Shown: positions 5,092 to 62,979 of the stretch, one piece after another
Layout: each line of letters starts with the position of its first letter
How positions within the stretch are numbered: position 1 is the stretch's first letter
Assembly: GCA_026400845.1 (NCBI GenBank)
Contig: JAPLOH010000110.1
Span: 1 to 64,000 of the forward strand
Length of the DNA stretch: 64,000 nt
Direction: 5' to 3'
DNA from: Alphaproteobacteria bacterium
Lineage (GTDB): Bacteria > Pseudomonadota > Alphaproteobacteria > Acetobacterales > Acetobacteraceae
Notes under the pieces: model-generated
Seen by the model: the letters and a program-made list of their open reading frames with translations, nothing else
The model's database searches: none
What the model was told of the DNA's origin: nothing
Position numbers and translations under genes: made by a program

Positions 5092-6504
5092 CTACGGCAG
5101 CACCTTGCCGGGGTTCATCAGGCCCGCGGGGTCGATGGCGTGTTTGATCCGGCGCATCAGGTCGAGTTCGGCGCCGCCGCGCCAGTCCGGCATCATGTAG
5201 GGCTTGAGGCGGCCGATGCCGTGTTCGGCGGAGAAGCTGCCGCCGTAGCGGCGCACCACTTCGCAGACGGTGTCCATGATCTCGTGGTCGCGCGCGAGGA
5301 ACGCGGCGGGGTCCATGCCCACGGGCTGTTGCAGATTGAAGTGGATGTTGCCGTCGCCCATGTGGCCGAAGGGCACGGCGCGGATGCCCGGCATCAGCGC
5401 GGCGCAGGCCGCGGTGGCCTCGCGGATGAATTGCGGCACCTTGGAGACCGGCACCGAGACGTCGTTCTTGACGCTGGCGCCCTCGCGCTTCTGGCTCTCG
5501 CTGTGCTCCTCGCGCAGCTTCCAGATGGCGGCGCGCTGGGCGGCGGATTCGGCGATGGCGGCGTCGATCACCACGCCATCCTCCAGCGCGCCTTCCAGCA
5601 CCGTCTCCAAAGTGTCGCGCAGCCCGGCATTGGGGCGGGGGGTGGCCAGCTCGATCAGCGCGTAGTGCGGCGCGCGTTCAGCGAGCGGCAGGGTAACGCC
5701 GGGGATGTGCTTCAGCACGAAATCCATCCCGAGGCCGGACATGTATTCGAAGGCCTGCACCGCCGCCGGGTCGTGGCGGTGGAAGCGGGTGAACAGATCG
5801 AGCGCTGCGGCCTCGCTCGGCACGGCGCAGAACGCAACCTCCACCTCGCGCGGGCGGGGCACCAGCTTCAGCACGGCGGCGGTGATGATGCCGAGCGTGC
5901 CCTCGGCCCCGACGAAAAGCTGGCGCAGGCAGTAGCCGGTGTTGTCCTTCCGGAGGCGGCGCAGCCCGTGCCAGATTTCGCCGTCCGGCAGCACGACTTC
6001 GAGGCCGAGCACGAGGTCTCGCGCATTGCCGTAACGCACGGTGTTGTTGCCGCCGGCGTTGGTGGAGAGGATGCCGCCGATCTGCGCCGTGCCTTCCGAG
6101 CCGATGGAGAGCGGAAACAGGCAGCCGGCCTCATCGGCGGCGGTCTGCGCGGCCTTCAGCGTGGCGCCGGCCTCGATGGTGAGGCTGAGATCGATCGCAT
6201 CGACGTCGCGGATGCGGTTCATCCGGGACAGGCATAGCACGAGTTCACTACCGTCCTCGTCCGGCACCGCGCCGCCGACCATCGAGGTATTGCCGCCCTG
6301 CGGCACCACCTTGCGCCCGGCGGCGGCGCATGCGCGCAGCACCGCCGCGACCTGCTCGGTGCTGTCGGGGCGCAGCACTGCTTCGGTGCGGCCGCGATAG
6401 AGGCGGCGCCAGTCCTCGCTATGGGGGGCGGTGTCGGCGGGATCGGTCAATATGCCGGAGGGGCCGAGAATTTCGGCGAGACGGGCAATCAAGGCATCGG
6501 ACAT
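5092..6504 (-). CDS. FAD-binding 2-hydroxyacid dehydrogenase (GlcD / D-lactate dehydrogenase type)
   Basis: This 470-residue enzyme starts at ATG 6504, preceded by a perfect AGGAGG 7 bases upstream. The N-terminal half is a PCMH-type FAD domain (VPQGGNTSMVGGAVPDEDG, IGSEGTAQIGGILSTNAGG, GTLGIITAAVLKLVPRP). The C-terminal half carries FGHMGDGNIHFNLQQP and AEHGIGRLKPYMM, which contribute to substrate and flavin binding. The family oxidises D-lactate, glycolate or D-2-hydroxyglutarate and passes electrons to quinone, cytochrome or ETF; the substrate cannot be fixed here. It is a monocistronic minus-strand gene convergent with the arsenic operon. Confidence 0.88.
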   Translation of the reverse strand: MSDALIARLAEILGPSGILTDPADTAPHSEDWRRLYRGRTEAVLRPDSTEQVAAVLRACAAAGRKVVPQGGNTSMVGGAVPDEDGSELVLCLSRMNRIRDVDAIDLSLTIEAGATLKAAQTAADEAGCLFPLSIGSEGTAQIGGILSTNAGGNNTVRYGNARDLVLGLEVVLPDGEIWHGLRRLRKDNTGYCLRQLFVGAEGTLGIITAAVLKLVPRPREVEVAFCAVPSEAAALDLFTRFHRHDPAAVQAFEYMSGLGMDFVLKHIPGVTLPLAERAPHYALIELATPRPNAGLRDTLETVLEGALEDGVVIDAAIAESAAQRAAIWKLREEHSESQKREGASVKNDVSVPVSKVPQFIREATAACAALMPGIRAVPFGHMGDGNIHFNLQQPVGMDPAAFLARDHEIMDTVCEVVRRYGGSFSAEHGIGRLKPYMMPDWRGGAELDLMRRIKHAIDPAGLMNPGKVLP

Positions 6505-9372: not shown

Positions 9373-10551
9373 ATGTGGCTGCGCGCGACCAGGATCGATC
9401 GCTACGTGTTGCGCCAGCTCCTGGCCGGGCTGCTCGCCGTCACGTTCGGGCTGGCGGCACTGATCTGGCTCACCCAGTCGCTGCGTTTCGTCGAGCTGGT
9501 GGTGAACCGTGGGCTGTCCTTCGGGGTGTTTCTGCAGCTCACCTCGCTGCTGCTGCCGAATTTCGTCGCCATCATCCTGCCGATCGCCTGCTTCGTGGTG
9601 ACGCTGTTCGTTTACCACCGGCTTGCCGGCGATCGCGAATTGACGGTGATGCGCGGTGCCGGCCTGTCGCAATGGGCGGTCGCGCGCCCGGCGCTCGCCA
9701 TGGCGGTGGGGGCGATGGTGTGCCTCTATGCGCTCAACCTCGCGGTGGTGCCGGCCTCCTCGGCGGCGTTCCGCGAATTCCAGTTCGAGATCCGCAATCG
9801 CGTGGTGGCCTTCCTGTTGCAGGAGGGGGTGTTCACCTCGGTCTCGGAGAACCTCACCGTCTATGTGCGGGCGCGGGACCGCGACGGCACGTTGCGCGGC
9901 CTCCTGATCGATGATGCCCGCAACCCCGCCAGCCACGCCACCATCCTCGCCGAAAGCGGCCGGCTCATCATGGACAGCGGCGCGCCGCGGGTACTCCTGG
10001 TGAACGGCAGCCGGGAGGAGCTTGATCATCGCACCGGCCGGTTGAACGTGCTGAGTTTCGCCGAGAACACCGTGGAGCTGGCCGATACCGACCGCAGCGG
10101 CGAGCAGCGCTTCCGCGACCCCTCGGAGATGACGATCGCCGAATTGTTCAACCCCAACCCCGCGATCGTCCCGGCGCGGGATTTCGGCAAGCTGCGCATG
10201 GAGGCGCACCGGCGGCTGGCGAGCCCGTTCTCCGCGGCCGGCTACACGTTGATCGCCCTCGCCGCGGTGCTGACCGGGGCCTTTCGCCGCCATGGCAGCT
10301 TGTTGCGGCCCTTCGCGAGCATTCTGCTGATCGTGGCGCTGGTGGCCGGCGGGCTGGCGGTCGCCAATCTGGCGGCCAAGCAAAACGCGCTGCTGCCCCT
10401 GGTCTGGCTGCATGCGTTGGTGCCCGGCGTGCTGGCGGCCTGGGCGCTGCTGGCGCCGCAGTTCGGCGCGCTGCCGGCCGGGCTCATGACGCGCCGTCCG
10501 CCGCCGGGTGGTTTCGCGCCAGGCCGGCTGCCGCCGGCCGGGGCAAGGTAG
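9373..10551 (+). CDS. lptF: LPS export ABC transporter permease LptF
   Basis: This 392-residue inner-membrane permease of the YjgP/YjgQ family has six expected membrane helices split around a periplasmic beta-jellyroll region (about residues 120-270). It starts MWLRATRIDRYVLRQLLAGLLAVTFGLAALIWL, and has LTVMRGAGLSQWAVARPAL in the cytoplasmic coupling region. With LptG and the ATPase LptB (not in this window) it extracts LPS from the inner membrane. It begins the envelope operon lptF-lptG-lptD-surA-rsmA and is followed after four bases by lptG. Confidence 0.93.
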   Translation: MWLRATRIDRYVLRQLLAGLLAVTFGLAALIWLTQSLRFVELVVNRGLSFGVFLQLTSLLLPNFVAIILPIACFVVTLFVYHRLAGDRELTVMRGAGLSQWAVARPALAMAVGAMVCLYALNLAVVPASSAAFREFQFEIRNRVVAFLLQEGVFTSVSENLTVYVRARDRDGTLRGLLIDDARNPASHATILAESGRLIMDSGAPRVLLVNGSREELDHRTGRLNVLSFAENTVELADTDRSGEQRFRDPSEMTIAELFNPNPAIVPARDFGKLRMEAHRRLASPFSAAGYTLIALAAVLTGAFRRHGSLLRPFASILLIVALVAGGLAVANLAAKQNALLPLVWLHALVPGVLAAWALLAPQFGALPAGLMTRRPPPGGFAPGRLPPAGAR

Positions 10552-10555
10552 GCCG

Positions 10556-11668
10556 GTGCGCTTCGCGACAACCCTCTCGCTCTACATCGCCCGCGTCTTC
10601 ACGCTCTCGGTGCTTGGGATGTTGGCGGCGCTGAGCTTCGTGGTCGGGCTGTTCGATTTCATCGAACTGCTGCGCCGCGCGGCGACCAAGCCGGATGCGA
10701 CGCTCGCCATCGTCGCCGAGATCGGCGGGCTGCGGCTGCCGTGGATCGCCATGCATATCCTGCCCTTCGCGGTGCTGCTCGGCGGCATCATGGCGTTCTG
10801 GCGGCTGACCCGCTCGTCGGAGCTGATCGTGGCGCGCGCCGCCGGGGTGTCGGCCTGGCAGTTTCTCGCCGCGCCGGTGCTGGCGGCGATCGCTCTCGGC
10901 GCTTTCGCCACCGCGGCGATCAGCCCGCTCTCGGCCAGCATGCGCGGCCGCGCCGAGGTGCTGGAGACGCGCTACCTCAAGACCGGCGGTGGGCCGATGG
11001 CGCTGAACGGCGGTGCGCTGTGGCTGCGCCAGTCCGACCGCCAGCTTGATCCGCTGGGGGTGGCGATACTGCATGCCGCAGGGGTGGCGCTGCGCGACGG
11101 GGCGTTGACGGCGCAGGCGGTCAGCGTTTTCCGGCTCGACCAGCGCGATCAGCTGATCCAGCGCATCGAGGCCACCGGCGCGCGGCTCGAGGGTGACGCC
11201 TGGGTGCTCGACAATGCGCGCCGGGTGACGCCGAACCATCTGCCGGAGCCGGCGCAGTCGATCCGCCTGCCGACGGAGATGACGGTCGATCGGGTGCAGG
11301 AGAGCTTCGCCGCGCCGGACACCTTCTCGGTCTGGGCGCTGCCGCCCTTCATCGCCCTGCTGGAGCATTCCGGCTTCTCGGCGATCCGCCACCGGCTGCA
11401 ATTCCAGAGCCTGCTTGCCCTGCCGCTGCTGGCCGGCACGATGGCGCTGGTGGCCGCCGGGTTCTCGATGCGCCCGGCCCGGCGCGGCGGCGTGGCGCGG
11501 ATGATCGGCAGCGGGGTGGCGGCCGGCTTCGCGCTGTTCGTGGTCACCAAGATCGCCGAGGAATTCGGCCAGTCCGGCGCGCTGCCCGCGGTGCTGGCGG
11601 CCTGGGCGCCGGCGGCGGCGGGGCTGCTGCTGTCGGTGTCGCTCCTGCTCCATCTGGAGGATGGCTGA
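10556..11668 (+). CDS. lptG: LPS export ABC transporter permease LptG
   Basis: This 370-residue partner permease of LptF starts with GTG 10556. It begins FATTLSLYIARVFTLSVLGMLAALSFVVGLFDFIELLRR and includes LTRSSELIVARAAGVSAWQFL, the helix that contacts LptB, then a periplasmic domain and three C-terminal membrane segments. Gram-negative LPS transport needs the LptB2FG complex. The frame is open further upstream but that part overlaps lptF, so the GTG four bases after the lptF stop is the sensible start. lptD follows two bases after the stop. Confidence 0.93.
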   Translation: MRFATTLSLYIARVFTLSVLGMLAALSFVVGLFDFIELLRRAATKPDATLAIVAEIGGLRLPWIAMHILPFAVLLGGIMAFWRLTRSSELIVARAAGVSAWQFLAAPVLAAIALGAFATAAISPLSASMRGRAEVLETRYLKTGGGPMALNGGALWLRQSDRQLDPLGVAILHAAGVALRDGALTAQAVSVFRLDQRDQLIQRIEATGARLEGDAWVLDNARRVTPNHLPEPAQSIRLPTEMTVDRVQESFAAPDTFSVWALPPFIALLEHSGFSAIRHRLQFQSLLALPLLAGTMALVAAGFSMRPARRGGVARMIGSGVAAGFALFVVTKIAEEFGQSGALPAVLAAWAPAAAGLLLSVSLLLHLEDG

Positions 11669-11670
11669 GC

Positions 11671-13878
11671 ATGAAGGCGCCGTTGCGGATACTGCTCGCG
11701 ACTTGCCTGGCGCTGCTCGGCGTGGCGGTGACGGGTATCGAGCGCCCGGGCGCCCAGCCGCGCCCGCCGGGCGGCCCGTCGGCGCCGATCCGCCAGGACC
11801 AGCCGACATTCTACCAGGCCGATCAGGCCGAATATGACCGTGATCGCGGCATCGCCATCCTGCGCGGCCATGTCGAGCTGTGGCAGGACCCGCGGATGTT
11901 GCTGGCCGACATGGTGACCTACGACCGCAACACCGGCGTTGCCACCGCCAAGGGCAATGTCGTGCTGCTGGAGCCCGATGGCCAGACGGTGTTCGCCGAT
12001 GAGGCGGAATTGTCGGAAGGCATGAAGCAAGGCGTGCTCGCCGGTATGCGGGCGCTGCTCCCCGAGAACGGCCGCCTCGCCGCCAGCGGAGCGCGGCGGA
12101 TCGACGGGCGGATCAACGAATTGTCCCGCGTCGTCTACTCCACCTGCGACCTCTGCAAGGACGACCCGACCAAGCCGCCGCTGTGGCAGATCCGCGCCGC
12201 CGAAGCGGTGCAGGACACCGACAACAAGATGATCGAATACCGTGATGTCGTGGTCGACATGTTCGGCTTCCCGGTCATCTGGCTGCCCTACCTCACCCAC
12301 CCCGACCCCTCGCAGAAGCGGGCGAGCGGGCTGCTGACGCCGAATTTCGGCCTCTCCAAACACCTCGGCGCCTTCTTCGGGCAACCCTACTACTGGGTGA
12401 TCGACGCGCAGTCGGACGCCACCATCACGCCGCTGGTGGCAACCAGGAACGGCCCCGCCGTCGTGATCGACTATCGCCGCCGCTTCAACGACGGGATGGT
12501 CTCGATCAACGCCGGGATTGCCCAGTTCGGCGGCGAGCCGGGCGCCCATGTCATCGCCAAGGGGAAGTTCGCGATCGACGAGGTCTGGCGCTGGGGGTTC
12601 GATGTGCAGCGCACCACCAGCCTCAACTATATGCGCGACTTCCGGATCGCCGGCGCCCAGACCGTGCTCACCAGCCAGGCCTATCTCGAAGGCTTTGGCC
12701 AGGGCGCCTGGACGCGGATCGACACCCGCGCCTACCAGGCACTGTCGAGCCCGGTGCGCGCGGAAAAACTGCCCTATGTTCTGCCGCGCTATGAATACAG
12801 CTTCGTAAGCGCGCCCGGCTGGCTCGGCGGGCGGGTATCGGTGGATGCCGGCGCGTTCAACATCTTCCGCTACTCCGGCACCAACACCCAGCGCGCCAGC
12901 CTCGCGATGGCCTGGGACGGCAGCGCCATCGGCCGGCTCGGCGATGTCTGGAGTGCCCGCGTGCAGGTGGAGAGCGCGACTTACTACGCCCATCAGTATG
13001 ACCAGCAGCCGAATTTCGGACCCAACGGCACCGTCAATGCGGCGCAGGCGATGCCGACCGCCGCCGTGCGCCTCAATCTCCCGTTTGCCCGCAACAGCGG
13101 CAGCTGGGGCACACAGATACTGGAGCCGATCGCCCAGGCGGTCGTCGCGCCGCGCGGCAGCACCTACCGGGGCACGCTGATCCCCAACGAGGACAGCCTC
13201 GATCAGGACTTCACCGACGCCAACCTGTTCTCGCTCAACCGCTTCCCCGGCATCGACCGCATGGAGGGTGGGGTGCGCTTCAACGTGGCACTGCACGCCG
13301 CCTGGTACCTGCCGGCCGGCGGCACCATCGACGCGCTGGTCGGCCAGAGTTTTCGCGCCCGGCCGGACCGCAGCTTCCTCGCCGAGTCCGGCCTCGAGAA
13401 GACCGCGAGCGACATCGTCAGCCATCTCTCCTACACGCCGAACAAATGGTTCGACATCACCACCCGCCAGCGCTTCGACAACAAGAGCATGAAAATCCGC
13501 TTCGCCGAAGCGCTCGCCGGCTATGGCCCGGAATGGGCGCGGTTCTCCACCGGCTACACCTATTCGGTGACTAACCCGTTCTATTATTTCGATACTGCCG
13601 GCGGCTCGGCGCTGGCCACCAAGCCGCGCAACGAACTGGTCGCCGGAGTGGCCACCACCGCCGGCCCCTACCGGCTGCACACCAGCGCAAGGCGAGATCT
13701 GCAACTCAACAAGATGGTGTCCCTCGCCGCCGGCGGCAGCTACGAGGACGAGTGCTTCATCTTCGACTTGAGCTTGCAGCGGCGCTATACCTCCATCAAC
13801 AACGACCGCGGTGCGAGTACCGTCCTATTCGAGATCACCTTCAAGACGATCGGCCAGTTCGGCTTCCACGCGCTGTGA
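11671..13878 (+). CDS. lptD: LPS assembly outer-membrane protein LptD
   Basis: This 735-residue protein starts with a signal peptide (LRILLATCLALLGVAVTG), followed by an OstA/LptA-like jellyroll (ADQAEYDRDRGIAILRGHVELWQDPRMLLAD, TYDRNTGVATAKGNVVL) and then a large beta-barrel with many alternating strands to the end. LptD inserts LPS into the outer leaflet, together with LptE. Two Cys close together (YSTCDLCKDDP near residue 155) and a late Cys (DECFIFDLSLQ) probably form the disulphides needed for LptD activation. It is part of the envelope operon and ends 31 bases before surA. Confidence 0.93.
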   Translation: MKAPLRILLATCLALLGVAVTGIERPGAQPRPPGGPSAPIRQDQPTFYQADQAEYDRDRGIAILRGHVELWQDPRMLLADMVTYDRNTGVATAKGNVVLLEPDGQTVFADEAELSEGMKQGVLAGMRALLPENGRLAASGARRIDGRINELSRVVYSTCDLCKDDPTKPPLWQIRAAEAVQDTDNKMIEYRDVVVDMFGFPVIWLPYLTHPDPSQKRASGLLTPNFGLSKHLGAFFGQPYYWVIDAQSDATITPLVATRNGPAVVIDYRRRFNDGMVSINAGIAQFGGEPGAHVIAKGKFAIDEVWRWGFDVQRTTSLNYMRDFRIAGAQTVLTSQAYLEGFGQGAWTRIDTRAYQALSSPVRAEKLPYVLPRYEYSFVSAPGWLGGRVSVDAGAFNIFRYSGTNTQRASLAMAWDGSAIGRLGDVWSARVQVESATYYAHQYDQQPNFGPNGTVNAAQAMPTAAVRLNLPFARNSGSWGTQILEPIAQAVVAPRGSTYRGTLIPNEDSLDQDFTDANLFSLNRFPGIDRMEGGVRFNVALHAAWYLPAGGTIDALVGQSFRARPDRSFLAESGLEKTASDIVSHLSYTPNKWFDITTRQRFDNKSMKIRFAEALAGYGPEWARFSTGYTYSVTNPFYYFDTAGGSALATKPRNELVAGVATTAGPYRLHTSARRDLQLNKMVSLAAGGSYEDECFIFDLSLQRRYTSINNDRGASTVLFEITFKTIGQFGFHAL

Positions 13879-58783: not shown

Positions 58784-59884
58784 TCAGTCCTTGCCGAAGG
58801 TCAGCACCGTGAAGCTGTCGGCGCGGAAGGTGTTGGCGTAGAACGGGCTGACGGACGTCGTGATTTTCTTGGCGAAATCGGCGCTGCCCTCGGCGGCCAC
58901 CGCGTGCAGCTTCTTGCTCTTGGGGTCGATCACCAGCGTGCGCATGCCCGAGCGCGTGCCCAGCGCCTCGACCGGCTTGTAGGTATCGGCGTCGACCTGC
59001 TCGAATACGTTCAGCACCGCGCCCACGCCGTTGGCGAGGAAGATGCGCTTGAGCCCGGCGTCATAGACGATGGCGTCGTTCCCGCCGCCGATTTCCGCAG
59101 TGTAGATCACCGTCCCGCTCTGCGCGTCCATCACCGCGAAGGAGGGCTTGACGGTGTCGCTGCCGCGGCAGCCCAGGAAAATCCGCCGGTTAGCACGATC
59201 GATCGTCAGGCCGTTGGTCTGTGCGCAGCCCGGGGTCGGCCAGGAGGCGGTGAGGGTCAGCGCCTTGGTATCGACGCGATAGACCATGTTGGTGTCCCGC
59301 GCCGCGATGAAGAACCCGCCCACGCCGTCGGAATCGGCGCCTTCCATCTTCTTCGTCGGCAAGCGGATCGAACCCACCTTGGTCAGCGACGGCACGTCGA
59401 GCACGATGGCATCGGTACCGTCCTTGTCGGGTGCCATGTTCATCACCATCCGCTTGGTCACCGGGTCATAGTGGCCGGTATCGAGCTCCTCGCCGAGCTT
59501 GATCGCCGGGCGTGCGGCGAGCGTCGAGAGGGTGAACGGGATGATGCTGCCGTTCTCGTTCAGCGAAATACCAAGGTCGAATTCCGGCAACAGCAACGCG
59601 CCGTTGGAACTCGCCGCCGCGGTGCCCTCGATGGTCGTGATCATTTTGCGTGAAGTCAGATCGAACGCCTGCAACCCATCGCGGCGATGCCCGATGAAGA
59701 GACGGTTGTGTGTCGTGTCGAGCGAGAGGTAGTCCCAGGCACCGGTCTTGCCGGGGATGACCGTCGCCTGCTGGACGTGCCAGCCGTCAAACGCGCGCGC
59801 CGGCTGGCCGGTCAGCAGTAGAATGGCGCCCGCCAGGAGCCTGCAAAATCTCGCTCTGATTACCGGGACGCCGGGGTCAGACGT
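58784..59884 (-). CDS. YncE-like beta-propeller protein, secreted
   Basis: This protein of about 366 residues has a signal peptide (LLAGAILLLTGQPARA) and then repeated beta-propeller blades (YLSLDTTHNRLFIGHRRDGLQAFDL, GHYDPVTKRMVMNMAPDKDGTDAIVLD, GLTIDRANRRIFLGCRGSD), as in YncE/NHL-type periplasmic proteins of unknown ligand. No ATG, GTG or TTG stands near a good ribosome site. A perfect AGGAGG (complement of 59889-59894) lies four bases before an in-frame ACG (59882-59884), which fits a mutated or non-canonical start. TTG 59995 and GTG 59959 are far upstream alternatives. Confidence 0.75.
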   Translation of the reverse strand, partial: TSDPGVPVIRARFCRLLAGAILLLTGQPARAFDGWHVQQATVIPGKTGAWDYLSLDTTHNRLFIGHRRDGLQAFDLTSRKMITTIEGTAAASSNGALLLPEFDLGISLNENGSIIPFTLSTLAARPAIKLGEELDTGHYDPVTKRMVMNMAPDKDGTDAIVLDVPSLTKVGSIRLPTKKMEGADSDGVGGFFIAARDTNMVYRVDTKALTLTASWPTPGCAQTNGLTIDRANRRIFLGCRGSDTVKPSFAVMDAQSGTVIYTAEIGGGNDAIVYDAGLKRIFLANGVGAVLNVFEQVDADTYKPVEALGTRSGMRTLVIDPKSKKLHAVAAEGSADFAKKITTSVSPFYANTFRADSFTVLTFGKD

Positions 59885-60067
59885 GTTTCCTCCTAGCTTA
59901 CTGCCCGGTGCGAGGGCGGTGATATTGCTAACAAGGGAAAAAAAATTGGCGTAACGCACGAGCTGCGCACGCCACGTGCGGGGCACTTTTCCCAAACCGG
60001 GACACAGTTGCTAGAACCTCCCCGCCAAGTCCAAGTCCAAGCCCCGGCGCAGGAGACCCGACCGAAT

Positions 60068-61741
60068 ATGACGGCGAATGTCCACTCACCCGATGACCTC
60101 TCGGGCCTCGCCACCGCGGTGATCGACCGTCTCGGCATGGCGTTCGACGTGGCGGTCAGCCGGGCGGCCGCTATGTGCGCCAAGGGCGGGCGGCTCGATG
60201 CCGGGCTGCTCGATACCCATCAGTGGATTTGCTACGAGCTCGCGCTGGCCAATGCCGATCTCTACGCTGCGCGCACCTTGCTGGGGCTGGGAGGAAATAT
60301 CTCTCCGCTCGATGCCGGGCTCGGCCTGGCGTTCGCCGCCCAGACGGCGCCGGCGCTGCTGGAGCGGTTGAGTGGCATATATGCCGCCGCCGGGCTCGAC
60401 ACCGCGGCGCTCGACGATCTCGTGACCGGGACAGCGCTGCGCCGCCTGCGCCGTGATGCGGGGGGGCCGGAGGTGCTGGCGGCACTGGGGGCCGAACTCG
60501 CCGAGACCGGCCTCGAGATCGCCGACGTGCAGGTGGATGAGGCCACTGCCCAGGCGCGCGATGGATTTCGGCGTTTCGCCGCCGACGTGGTGGCACCACT
60601 CGCGGCGGCGATCCATCGCGAGGACCGCACGGTACCCGAGAGCCTGCTGCAACCGTTGCGCGAGATGGGCGTGTTCGGCCTCTCCATCCCAGAGGAATAT
60701 GGCGGTCTGGCGCCGGCGGGTGGCGCCAATACGCCGATGATGATCGCGGTGACCGAGGCGCTGTCAGAGGCCAGTCTCGCCGCCGCCGGTTCGCTGATCA
60801 CTCGCCCCGAGATCCTCGCCCGTGCTTTGCTGGCCGGCGGTACCGAGGCGCAGAAGGCGCATTGGCTGCCCAAGCTGGCGGCCGGCGAGCCGCTCTGCGC
60901 CATCGCCATCACCGAGCCGGATGCCGGCTCCGACGTCGCCAGCCTCAAGTTGCGCGGCACCAAAACCGAGGGTGGCTGGCTGCTCGATGGCGCCAAGACC
61001 TGGTGCACCTTCGCGGGCAAGGCGGGGGTGCTGATGGTGGTGACCCGCACCAACCCCGACCGCTCGCTCGGCCATCGCGGCCTGAGCCTGCTGCTGGTGG
61101 AGAAGCCATCCTATGAGGGCCATGATTTCGCCTATCGCCAGGAGGGCGGCGGCAGCCTTACCGGGCGCGCCATCCCGACGCTCGGCTATCGCGGCATGCA
61201 CTCCTTCGACCTCGCCTTCGAGAATTTCTTCGTGCCCGATGCCTGCGTGATCGGCGAGGAGGGCGGGCTCGGCAAAGGGTTCTATCTCACCATGGCCGGC
61301 ATGGTCGGCGGACGCATCCAGACCTCCGGGCGGGCGCTCGGGGTGATGAAGGCGGCGCTCTCAGCCGCCATCCGCTACGCCCGCGATCGGAAAGTATTCG
61401 ACGCGCCGCTGATCGATTTCCCGCTCACCCGCATCAAGCTCGCCACCATGGCCGCCCGCTTCGCCGCCTGCCGCCACCTCGCCTATGCCGTCGCGCGCGA
61501 GTTGGACCAGGGGCGCGGACGGATGGAGGCGAGCCTGGTGAAGCTGCTGGCCTGCCGTTCCGCCGAGCTGGTCACCCGCGAGGCGCTGCAGATCCATGGC
61601 GGCATGGGCTACGCCGAGGAAAGCCCGGTCAGCCGCTATTTCGTCGATGCCCGCGTGCTCTCCATCTTCGAGGGCGCGGAGGAGACGCTGGCGCTGAAAG
61701 TGGTCGCGAAATCCCTGCTGGAAGAGGCGCTCAAGTCATGA
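60068..61741 (+). CDS. Acyl-CoA dehydrogenase with N-terminal extension, (2S)-methylsuccinyl-CoA dehydrogenase-like
   Basis: This 557-residue flavoenzyme is about 170 residues longer than usual acyl-CoA dehydrogenases because of an N-terminal helical extension (residues 1-150), a hallmark of methylsuccinyl-CoA dehydrogenase (Mcd). The core has FGLSIPEEYGGLAPAG, AIAITEPDAGSDVASLKL, ALGVMKAALSAAIRYARDRKVFDAPL and LQIHGGMGYAEESPVSRYFVDARVLSIFEGAEE. GRIQTSGRALGV parallels the RIQTAARA block I recall from Mcd. The next gene encodes a mesaconyl-CoA-type CoA transferase and overlaps the stop, supporting a shared C5 dicarboxylyl-CoA step. A general acyl-CoA dehydrogenase role cannot be excluded. Confidence 0.78.
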   Translation: MTANVHSPDDLSGLATAVIDRLGMAFDVAVSRAAAMCAKGGRLDAGLLDTHQWICYELALANADLYAARTLLGLGGNISPLDAGLGLAFAAQTAPALLERLSGIYAAAGLDTAALDDLVTGTALRRLRRDAGGPEVLAALGAELAETGLEIADVQVDEATAQARDGFRRFAADVVAPLAAAIHREDRTVPESLLQPLREMGVFGLSIPEEYGGLAPAGGANTPMMIAVTEALSEASLAAAGSLITRPEILARALLAGGTEAQKAHWLPKLAAGEPLCAIAITEPDAGSDVASLKLRGTKTEGGWLLDGAKTWCTFAGKAGVLMVVTRTNPDRSLGHRGLSLLLVEKPSYEGHDFAYRQEGGGSLTGRAIPTLGYRGMHSFDLAFENFFVPDACVIGEEGGLGKGFYLTMAGMVGGRIQTSGRALGVMKAALSAAIRYARDRKVFDAPLIDFPLTRIKLATMAARFAACRHLAYAVARELDQGRGRMEASLVKLLACRSAELVTREALQIHGGMGYAEESPVSRYFVDARVLSIFEGAEETLALKVVAKSLLEEALKS

Positions 61742-62979
61742 ATCTCGGCCTGCTCAACCTCCGGGTCGTCGAATCCAGCGCCTTCATCGCCGCCCCGCTG
61801 GCTGGGCTCACACTGGCGCAGTTCGGCGCCGACGTGATCCATATCGACAATATCGGCGGCGGCATCGATTACGGCCGCCTGCCGCTGATGCCCTCCGGCC
61901 GCTCGCTTTACTGGACCAGCCTCAACAAGGCCAAGCGCTCGATTGCGATCGATCTGCGCCGCCCCGAAGGGCGCGAACTCGTCCAGGCCCTCGTCACCGC
62001 TCCCGGCGAAAACGCCGGCATTCTGCTCACCAACATCGTCTCCAAATGGCTCGATCACGCGGCACTGGCCAAGACGCGGCCGGACCTCATCACCTGCATG
62101 ATCGAGGGTAACCAGGACGGCACCACCGCCGTCGACTACACGGTGAACGCCGCCACCGGCTACCCGGCGATGACCGGGCCGGGCTCGATCGACGCGCCGG
62201 TGAACCATGTGCTGCCGGCCTGGGACATCGCCTGTGCCTTCCAGGCGGCGCTGGCGATATCCGCCGCCGCCGATCGCCGCCGCCGCACCGGGGTGGGGGC
62301 CGAGTTGCGGCTCGCGCTGTCGGACGTCGCGTTCACCATGCTCTCGCATCTCGGGCTGGCTACCGAGGCGCAGTTGTTGGGCGAGGCGCGTCCCTCGCTC
62401 GGCAATCATATCTACGGCGCCTTCGGACGGGATTTCGCCACCGCCGACGGCAAGCGGATCATGGTCGCCGGGATATCCGCCGCGCAATGGACGACGCTGG
62501 TGAAGTCCTGCGGGATCGAGGCGGAGATCGCCGCGCTGGAAGCCCGGCTTGGCAAGCGTTTCGTCGATGAGTCCGACAGGTTCGACGCCCGCGATGCCAT
62601 CGCCGAGCTGGTCGCTGGCTGGTGCCTGGCGCGGACACTCGCCGAAATCCGGCCTACTTTCGATGCCAACCGGGTCTGTTGGGGCCCCTACCGCACCACG
62701 CCCGACCTGATGGCGAACGACGCTCGCGTCGGCCCGACCAACCCGGTGTGGGAACAACTCGATCCCGCCGGGATCGGCCCCCATCGCGCCGCCGGTACCC
62801 CAGTGCGCGCTCCGGCCGAGCCGCGCGGCGCGATGACCCCGGCGCCCCTGCTCGGCCAGCATACCGACGACATTCTGCTCGGCGTACTCGGCCTCAGCGG
62901 CGCCGCCGTCGGCAAGTTGCATGACAGCGGCGTGGTCGCGGGACCCGACAAGGACCCGACCGGACTGCGCGATCTATGA
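61738..62979 (+). CDS. CoA transferase family III, 2-methylfumaryl-CoA isomerase-like (Mct)
   Basis: This 413-residue formyl-CoA-transferase-like (class III) protein starts at ATG 61738, overlapping the dehydrogenase stop (ATGA). It contains LRVVESSAFIAAPLAGLTLAQFGADVIHIDNIGGGIDYGRLP, SLNKAKRSIAIDLRRPEGRELVQ, GNQDGTTAVDYTVNAATGYPAMTGP, and APVNHVLPAWDIACAFQAAL, which I recall as characteristic of mesaconyl-C1-CoA to mesaconyl-C4-CoA transferase (Mct) of the 3-hydroxypropionate bicycle. It would move CoA within mesaconate after dehydrogenation of methylsuccinyl-CoA. Other CoA-transferase substrates remain possible. Confidence 0.83.
   Translation: MNLGLLNLRVVESSAFIAAPLAGLTLAQFGADVIHIDNIGGGIDYGRLPLMPSGRSLYWTSLNKAKRSIAIDLRRPEGRELVQALVTAPGENAGILLTNIVSKWLDHAALAKTRPDLITCMIEGNQDGTTAVDYTVNAATGYPAMTGPGSIDAPVNHVLPAWDIACAFQAALAISAAADRRRRTGVGAELRLALSDVAFTMLSHLGLATEAQLLGEARPSLGNHIYGAFGRDFATADGKRIMVAGISAAQWTTLVKSCGIEAEIAALEARLGKRFVDESDRFDARDAIAELVAGWCLARTLAEIRPTFDANRVCWGPYRTTPDLMANDARVGPTNPVWEQLDPAGIGPHRAAGTPVRAPAEPRGAMTPAPLLGQHTDDILLGVLGLSGAAVGKLHDSGVVAGPDKDPTGLRDL

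Follow-up and report, generated by a model that had tools for sequence, protein, structure and literature searches.

Two overlapping genes for Mcd-like and Mct-like proteins

The stretch of DNA analysed here, referred to as the window, comprises 64,000 nucleotides from an alphaproteobacterium of the family Acetobacteraceae (contig JAPLOH010000110.1 of assembly GCA_026400845.1), and our subject is a pair of genes at 60068-62979 whose products resemble methylsuccinyl-coenzyme A (CoA) dehydrogenase (Mcd) and mesaconyl-CoA C1-C4 transferase (Mct). A check of the open reading frames (ORFs) found both genes open and on the same strand (Table 1), and it confirmed the ATGA overlap that a first-pass annotation of this DNA had pointed out. 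From the overlap we infer that the translation of mcd and mct may be coupled. The mcd gene probably starts at the ATG at 60068, with an AGGAG ahead of it.

Table 1. Features of the mcd-mct locus in the window
Feature	Position	Strand	Basis
mcd-like gene (557 aa), predicted product (2S)-methylsuccinyl-CoA dehydrogenase with a long N-terminal extension	60068..61741	+	8CIW, 66% identity over 529 aa; residues; tree
N-terminal extension of Mcd, about residues 1-154	60068..60530	+	alignment to 8CIW and 6ES9
mct-like gene, 413 aa	61738..62979	+	8APQ, 51% identity; residues; tree
ATGA stop/start overlap of mcd and mct	61738..61741	+	mct ATG at 61738, mcd stop TGA at 61739-61741
Possible ribosome-binding site AGGAG 5' of mcd ATG	60051..60055	+	sequence, by inference

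The best match of the window Mcd in the PDB is 8CIW (E 1e-212), which we take to be the (2S)-methylsuccinyl-CoA dehydrogenase of Pseudomonas migulae, with an alignment that runs from residue 8 to 556 and includes the N-terminal extension; the second is 6ES9, the Mcd of Paracoccus denitrificans (PdMCD), at E 1e-86 and 38% identity. The Pfam domain Acyl-CoA_dh_N begins at residue 159, and the extension ahead of this core aligns with both structures. Such an extension mimics a dimer-dimer interface, and Glu535, Arg252, Arg376 and Arg421 of PdMCD have been shown or proposed to be important (PMC5798300). The window Mcd keeps the catalytic Glu as E535, and the carboxylate-binding R252, R376 and R421 as R246, R375 and R422, all identical in 8CIW. 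In the pocket for the C2-methyl group A285 and F287 of PdMCD are I279 and I281 in the window Mcd, and 8CIW is the same as the window protein. In a tree the window Mcd falls in a clade of mostly mct-linked Mcds that contains 8CIW, with ordinary acyl-CoA dehydrogenases far outside, and the acyl-CoA dehydrogenases of its own genome reach no more than 35% identity to it over longer matches (37-40% in two shorter ones). In fold family, N-terminal extension, catalytic Glu, the three Arg and predicted reaction the window Mcd is like both 6ES9, an Mcd of the ethylmalonyl-CoA pathway, and 8CIW. Tree, motif residues and gene context uphold its first-pass assignment as an Mcd-like protein with a long N-terminal extension, and place it beside 8CIW, away from fatty-acyl enzymes. 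It is predicted to oxidise (2S)-methylsuccinyl-C1-CoA.

The closest structures to the window Mct are the Chloroflexus and Roseiflexus Mct enzymes 8APQ (E 7e-126, 51% identity) and 7XKG (50%), and the remaining family III transferases are much more distant, with E values of 6e-22 or worse. The solved Mct has Asp165, Arg47 and, as the cork, Leu43 where the window protein has Asp163, Arg47 and Ile43. A cork Leu or Ile is conserved among intramolecular enzymes (PMC9813914). Among 74 members of the Mct family, Arg47 and Asp163 are present in every one (74/74) and Ile or Leu at position 43 in 69; two intermolecular outgroups, formyl-CoA and hydroxymethylglutaryl-CoA transferases, have Asp at 43 and Ala or Thr at 47. 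Tree, residues and context place the protein in the Mct group, apart from formyl- and succinyl-CoA transferases, in agreement with the Mct-like class III transferase originally proposed. The second ORF is predicted to encode an Mct-family mesaconyl-CoA C1-C4 transferase.

Although the window Mct belongs to the Mct family, it lies outside the subclade of Chloroflexus, Roseiflexus and Accumulibacter, which bears on whether the locus could be a remnant or part of the 3-hydroxypropionate bicycle (co-assimilation of glyoxylate and propionyl-CoA), with Mct working without Mcd. In Accumulibacter and elsewhere the neighbours of Mct members do include Meh, Mch and further bicycle-type genes, and the window Mct shares with the bicycle enzyme its family, catalytic Asp, pocket Arg, Leu/Ile cork and predicted reaction. 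It differs, however, in its separate subclade (51% identity), in other adenine-clamp residues, and in having Mcd as partner instead of bicycle genes; mct overlaps the gene of an enzyme that the bicycle does not use, and no mch homologue lies near the pair. We consider this explanation very improbable.

To the left of mcd a divergent gene (58784-59995, minus strand) begins 72 bases away; for its protein Pfam gave nothing and NCBIfam no more than a weak match (MmpL3/TtfA stabilizer), and past the gene lies a ribonuclease E-like gene, as read from its ORF. To the right of mct is a gene for a sugar-type ATP-binding cassette (ABC) transporter permease on the minus strand. The GC content of the pair, 67.5-69.5%, is similar to that of its surroundings. 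Near the pair we found neither Mch nor Meh, and recognised no activating enzyme or dicarboxylate transporter adjoining it. As an amidase and an ABC transporter are found downstream of mct instead in the congener G001, mcd-mct alone looks like the conserved unit in the genus.

Gene neighbourhoods and the ethylmalonyl-CoA pathway

Chance does not account for the pairing. Of 12 mct loci of window relatives that were found by Mct alone, nine have Mcd adjoining mct, with either gene first and with Mcds of two lineages. A second sample, of 80 named loci found by Mcd alignment with neighbours counted within 2.9 kb, had mct nearby at 53, mch at 15, both at one and neither at 11. Counted over whole loci and with four plasmids added (84 Mcd loci), 56 had mct only, 15 mch only, three both and 10 neither, so that mct and mch nearly exclude each other (Fisher p 1e-7, uncorrected for relatedness). 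On the Mcd tree the mct and mch labels cluster much more strongly than when they are shuffled, and the mct-linked sequences include 8CIW as well as the window Mcd. A third sample, of 24 plasmid records found by Mct, showed an Mcd-type match within about 2 kb of Mct in 16, of which eight are from Azospirillum and non-independent. In two gammaproteobacterial metagenome-assembled genomes (L144, L145) Mcd is matched by tblastn over 2392 bases (10001-12392), about 0.75 kb above other loci, which suggests that the gene is split, contains an insertion or has a second copy.

It was in the ethylmalonyl-CoA pathway that Mcd first became known (PMC5798300), and it could be argued that the window Mcd works there too. 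In that pathway the product of Mcd passes through Mch to glyoxylate and propionyl-CoA, and the genes are arranged as mcd with mch and no mct, whereas window-type Mcd loci lack mch, the window Mcd is paired with Mct, and 8CIW stands in the mct-linked clade. The window organism's genome consists of 369 contigs, with a completeness of 97.8%. It gave a best Ccr match of 61 bits against a family cut-off of 378, and no match to the MM_CoA_mutase family (methylmalonyl-/ethylmalonyl-CoA mutase), for which eight control genomes were positive; Ccr was likewise missing from ten further genomes with mct homologues. With neither Ccr nor the mutase in the genome, the pair does not belong to the ethylmalonyl-CoA pathway, an explanation that we rejected as largely refuted and to which we give next to no weight. 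The first-pass annotation had proposed a hybrid C5 route for acetate, propionate or itaconate, and had suggested looking for ccr and ecm. The C5 junction was supported, as described below, but acetate as an input was not, as its use would depend on two enzymes missing from the search results, Ccr and ethylmalonyl-CoA mutase. For isocitrate lyase (PF00463) the genome gave only short 40-bit matches, none of them convincing, which we read as the wider lyase superfamily. As markers of the ethylmalonyl-CoA pathway were not found and no isocitrate lyase was convincing, a route for growth on acetate is not evident in this genome.

Hydratase and lyase partners of the proposed C5 route

Taken together, the protein families and gene neighbourhoods make it fairly likely that mcd-mct forms the core of a C5 catabolic route through which methylsuccinyl-C1-CoA is drained to pyruvate and acetyl-CoA. 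Mcd would oxidise methylsuccinyl-CoA to mesaconyl-C1-CoA, and Mct would then shift the CoA moiety intramolecularly from C1 to C4 through anhydride and thioester steps at Asp163, a step that we predict because of the 51% identity to the solved Mct and the conserved Asp163, Arg47 and cork Ile43. A Meh-like hydratase and then a citramalyl-CoA-type lyase, both encoded elsewhere in the genome, would take the product by way of citramalyl-CoA to pyruvate and acetyl-CoA, and these steps are proposed because the genome holds candidates for both and other bacteria have contiguous clusters. The search for the two enzymes, also suggested by the first-pass annotation, yielded one hydratase candidate on contig C103, 55% identical to the Meh-like hydratase of Paraburkholderia D15, and one lyase candidate on contig C100, 43-46% identical to lyases near Mcd-Mct elsewhere (L092, L105, L117 and others). 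The route as proposed neither forms nor requires propionyl-CoA.

All four catalytic genes (Mcd, Mct, hydratase and citramalyl-CoA-type lyase) are held by 11 of the 84 loci. A hydratase occurs at 18 of 56 mct loci and at one of 15 mch loci (p 0.055), an association that is only suggestive. On the Sinorhizobium mexicanum plasmid pEmeITTGR7c, Mcd (555 aa), Mct (62% identical to the window Mct), a Meh-type hydratase, a lyase, EtfB and EtfA are encoded consecutively on one strand; the best model for this lyase is the itaconate-degradation lyase RipC/Ccl, with a score below that model's cut-off. Plasmid pSHV1 of Sphingobium herbicidovorans MH has Mct, Mcd, MaoC and an aldolase/citrate lyase in a row, and in Paraburkholderia D15 a stretch of about 10 kb encodes hydratase, lyase, electron transfer flavoprotein, Mcd, Mct and a CoA transferase of family I. 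Clusters that add hydratase and lyase in this manner support the junction from methylsuccinyl-CoA through mesaconyl-C4-CoA to pyruvate and acetyl-CoA that had been put forward at first pass. The cluster of pEmeITTGR7c is followed by a LeuC-type isomerase/dehydratase gene (L214:12553-14067) and preceded by a D-2-hydroxyacid dehydrogenase-like gene (5318-6319), flanking genes that might point to citramalate or citraconate-type substrates.

Several observations weigh against assigning the pair to such a route. The best NCBIfam model for Mct by far, TIGR04253 (2-methylfumaryl-CoA isomerase), reaches 441 bits where 725 would be needed for an equivalog, and we therefore claim membership of the wider Mct family and not equivalence to the bicycle enzyme; the CoA-binding Phe101 and Arg104 of the solved Mct are Ile100 and Lys103 in the window protein. 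The hydratase and lyase candidates lie on contigs other than that of mcd-mct, unlinked to the pair, and the C103 hydratase closely follows a gene of the adenylosuccinate-lyase/CMLE superfamily (C103:3-1987, L164). A hydratase beside an adenylosuccinate-lyase-family gene has been ascribed to another pathway (PMC12290011), and this placement makes the role of the hydratase in its own genome unsure. In the congener G002 mcd-mct is present and a C103-type hydratase was not found, and a family I CoA transferase like that of D15 was not found in the window genome or in two congeners, by a search that had no positive control. Finally, among 29 loci found across the phylum by Mct alone (1.5 kb flanks), a true Mcd occurs at two, another acyl-CoA dehydrogenase at four and a Meh-type hydratase at 13. 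The idea that every Mct is partnered with Mcd was rejected, as Mct stands more often beside a hydratase in this phylum-wide sample; Mct serves as a module in several contexts, with Mcd as one main partner. The C103 hydratase and its adenylosuccinate-lyase-family neighbour are kept in genomes G001, G006 and G008, and are adjacent in G001 and G008; they possibly form a separate pathway, as hinted in PMC12290011.

Numerous mcd-mct loci lie within big beta-oxidation or ring-degradation clusters, among them those of Variovorax and Hydrogenophaga, and the pair might instead act on larger 2-substituted dicarboxylyl-CoA esters, such as alkyl- or cycloalkyl-succinyl-CoA, in the degradation of cyclic compounds. 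An unrelated pair of intramolecular CoA transferase and dehydrogenase is known for cyclohexane dicarboxylate, and ThnP/ThnO of anaerobic naphthalene degradation (PMC11659651) follow the same logic, although ThnP is a family I transferase, has another substrate and transfers CoA before the oxidation. However, every active-site residue for binding of the free carboxylate is conserved, the residues of the methyl pocket equal those of 8CIW, and the recurring Meh-type hydratase and citramalyl-CoA-type lyase fit a C5 chain, and we judge action on larger esters to be improbable. A large conserved cluster, mostly in Burkholderiales (L077, L086-L092, L094, L096 and L111), encodes a ketoacyl-synthase-III-like protein, thiolase, enoyl-CoA hydratases, 3-hydroxyacyl-CoA dehydrogenase and a flavin adenine dinucleotide (FAD) oxidoreductase with Mcd and Mct, and looks like a degradation pathway ending in methylsuccinyl-CoA.

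Likely source of methylsuccinyl-C1-CoA and relation to known pathways

If mcd-mct is the core of a catabolic C5 route, the source of methylsuccinyl-C1-CoA is likely the thiolytic breakdown of methyl-branched compounds. The C1 ester would arise when a thiolase cuts a chain that has its methyl group beside the new thioester, for example in 4-methyl-3-oxoadipyl-CoA from methylcatechols, which in turn are formed from 4-chloro-2-methylphenoxyacetic acid (MCPA) and mecoprop. Thiolysis of 4-methyl-3-oxoadipyl-CoA yields acetyl-CoA and methylsuccinyl-CoA (PMC6449761), and by its structure, on our own chemical reasoning, the thioester is predicted to adjoin the methyl-bearing carbon, which makes it the C1 ester. 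A thiolytic source is in keeping with the presence of mcd-mct on phenoxy-herbicide plasmids and in the ring clusters of Variovorax and Hydrogenophaga. One carrier, pAKD34, has rdpA and sdpA, which we take to be phenoxypropionate dioxygenase genes. Another is pCADAB1 of Sphingomonas ERG5, a strain described as a degrader of MCPA (PMC3877037), and with pSHV1 the carriers linked to phenoxy-herbicide degradation number three. Goenner et al. regard methylsuccinyl-C1-CoA as a dead end in Cupriavidus necator (PMC12290011), an organism that lacks the ethylmalonyl-CoA pathway, and Mct would rescue this ester.

A different version of the C5 route, in which the pair serves to use free methylsuccinate taken up from outside the cell and not internal breakdown products, draws on the family I CoA transferase and transporters added in several clusters (Paraburkholderia D15, Polaromonas and others) and on the tripartite ATP-independent periplasmic (TRAP) transporter genes of Hydrogenophaga. 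As neither the window genome nor two congeners gave a D15-type CoA transferase in the uncontrolled search, and no activating enzyme or dicarboxylate transporter was recognised beside the pair, we consider this version unlikely.

Known fates of methylsuccinyl-CoA are that in the ethylmalonyl-CoA pathway and, for the C4 ester, that in the use of methylsuccinate by pseudomonads (PMC12290011). The pseudomonad route for methylsuccinate and itaconate resembles the one proposed here in leading to pyruvate and acetyl-CoA via mesaconyl-C4-CoA with a Meh-type hydratase and citramalyl-CoA lyase, but its dehydrogenase works on the C4 ester and Mct is not needed, whereas the window has a C1-type Mcd and Mct (PMC12290011). 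None of its cluster genes (ict, ich, ccl, the C4-specific dehydrogenase and the MmgE/PrpD isomerase) adjoins the window pair, whose dehydrogenase is of the long C1-type family. Itaconate also fell away as an input, as itaconyl-CoA reaches citramalyl-CoA without Mcd or Mct (PMC12290011).

Each of the two enzymes is known singly, and their junction is so far mainly an artificial pathway design; in the open-access literature we found no publication on a natural Mcd-Mct route. The THETA cycle reportedly also uses the Mcd-Mct junction. In the artificial reductive citramalyl-CoA cycle (PMC10521678) Mcd likewise forms mesaconyl-C1-CoA, followed by Mct, hydratase and lyase to pyruvate and acetyl-CoA, but this cycle is a CO2-fixing design fed by Ccr and Ecm, whereas the window system is natural, lacks both and is probably catabolic.

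We lean, by a little, to the broader view that Mcd-Mct is the signature of an undescribed and widespread bacterial pathway, in which methylsuccinyl-C1-CoA from thiolysis of methyl-branched compounds, methylated aromatics and chloromethylphenoxy herbicides among them, is converted to pyruvate and acetyl-CoA without B12, propionyl-CoA or glyoxylate. If this is true, the pair is a natural counterpart of the junction designed for synthetic CO2-fixation cycles, and synthetic acetyl-CoA/pyruvate cycles, which now join Mcd and Mct from unrelated organisms, would gain enzyme pairs that occur together in nature. A simple genomic rule would follow, by which mcd beside mch suggests the ethylmalonyl-CoA pathway and mcd beside mct suggests the Mcd-Mct route. 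The conserved pair would give methylsuccinyl-C1-CoA its missing exit, and the route could explain how the breakdown of methylcatechols, herbicides of the MCPA/mecoprop type and other branched compounds is completed.

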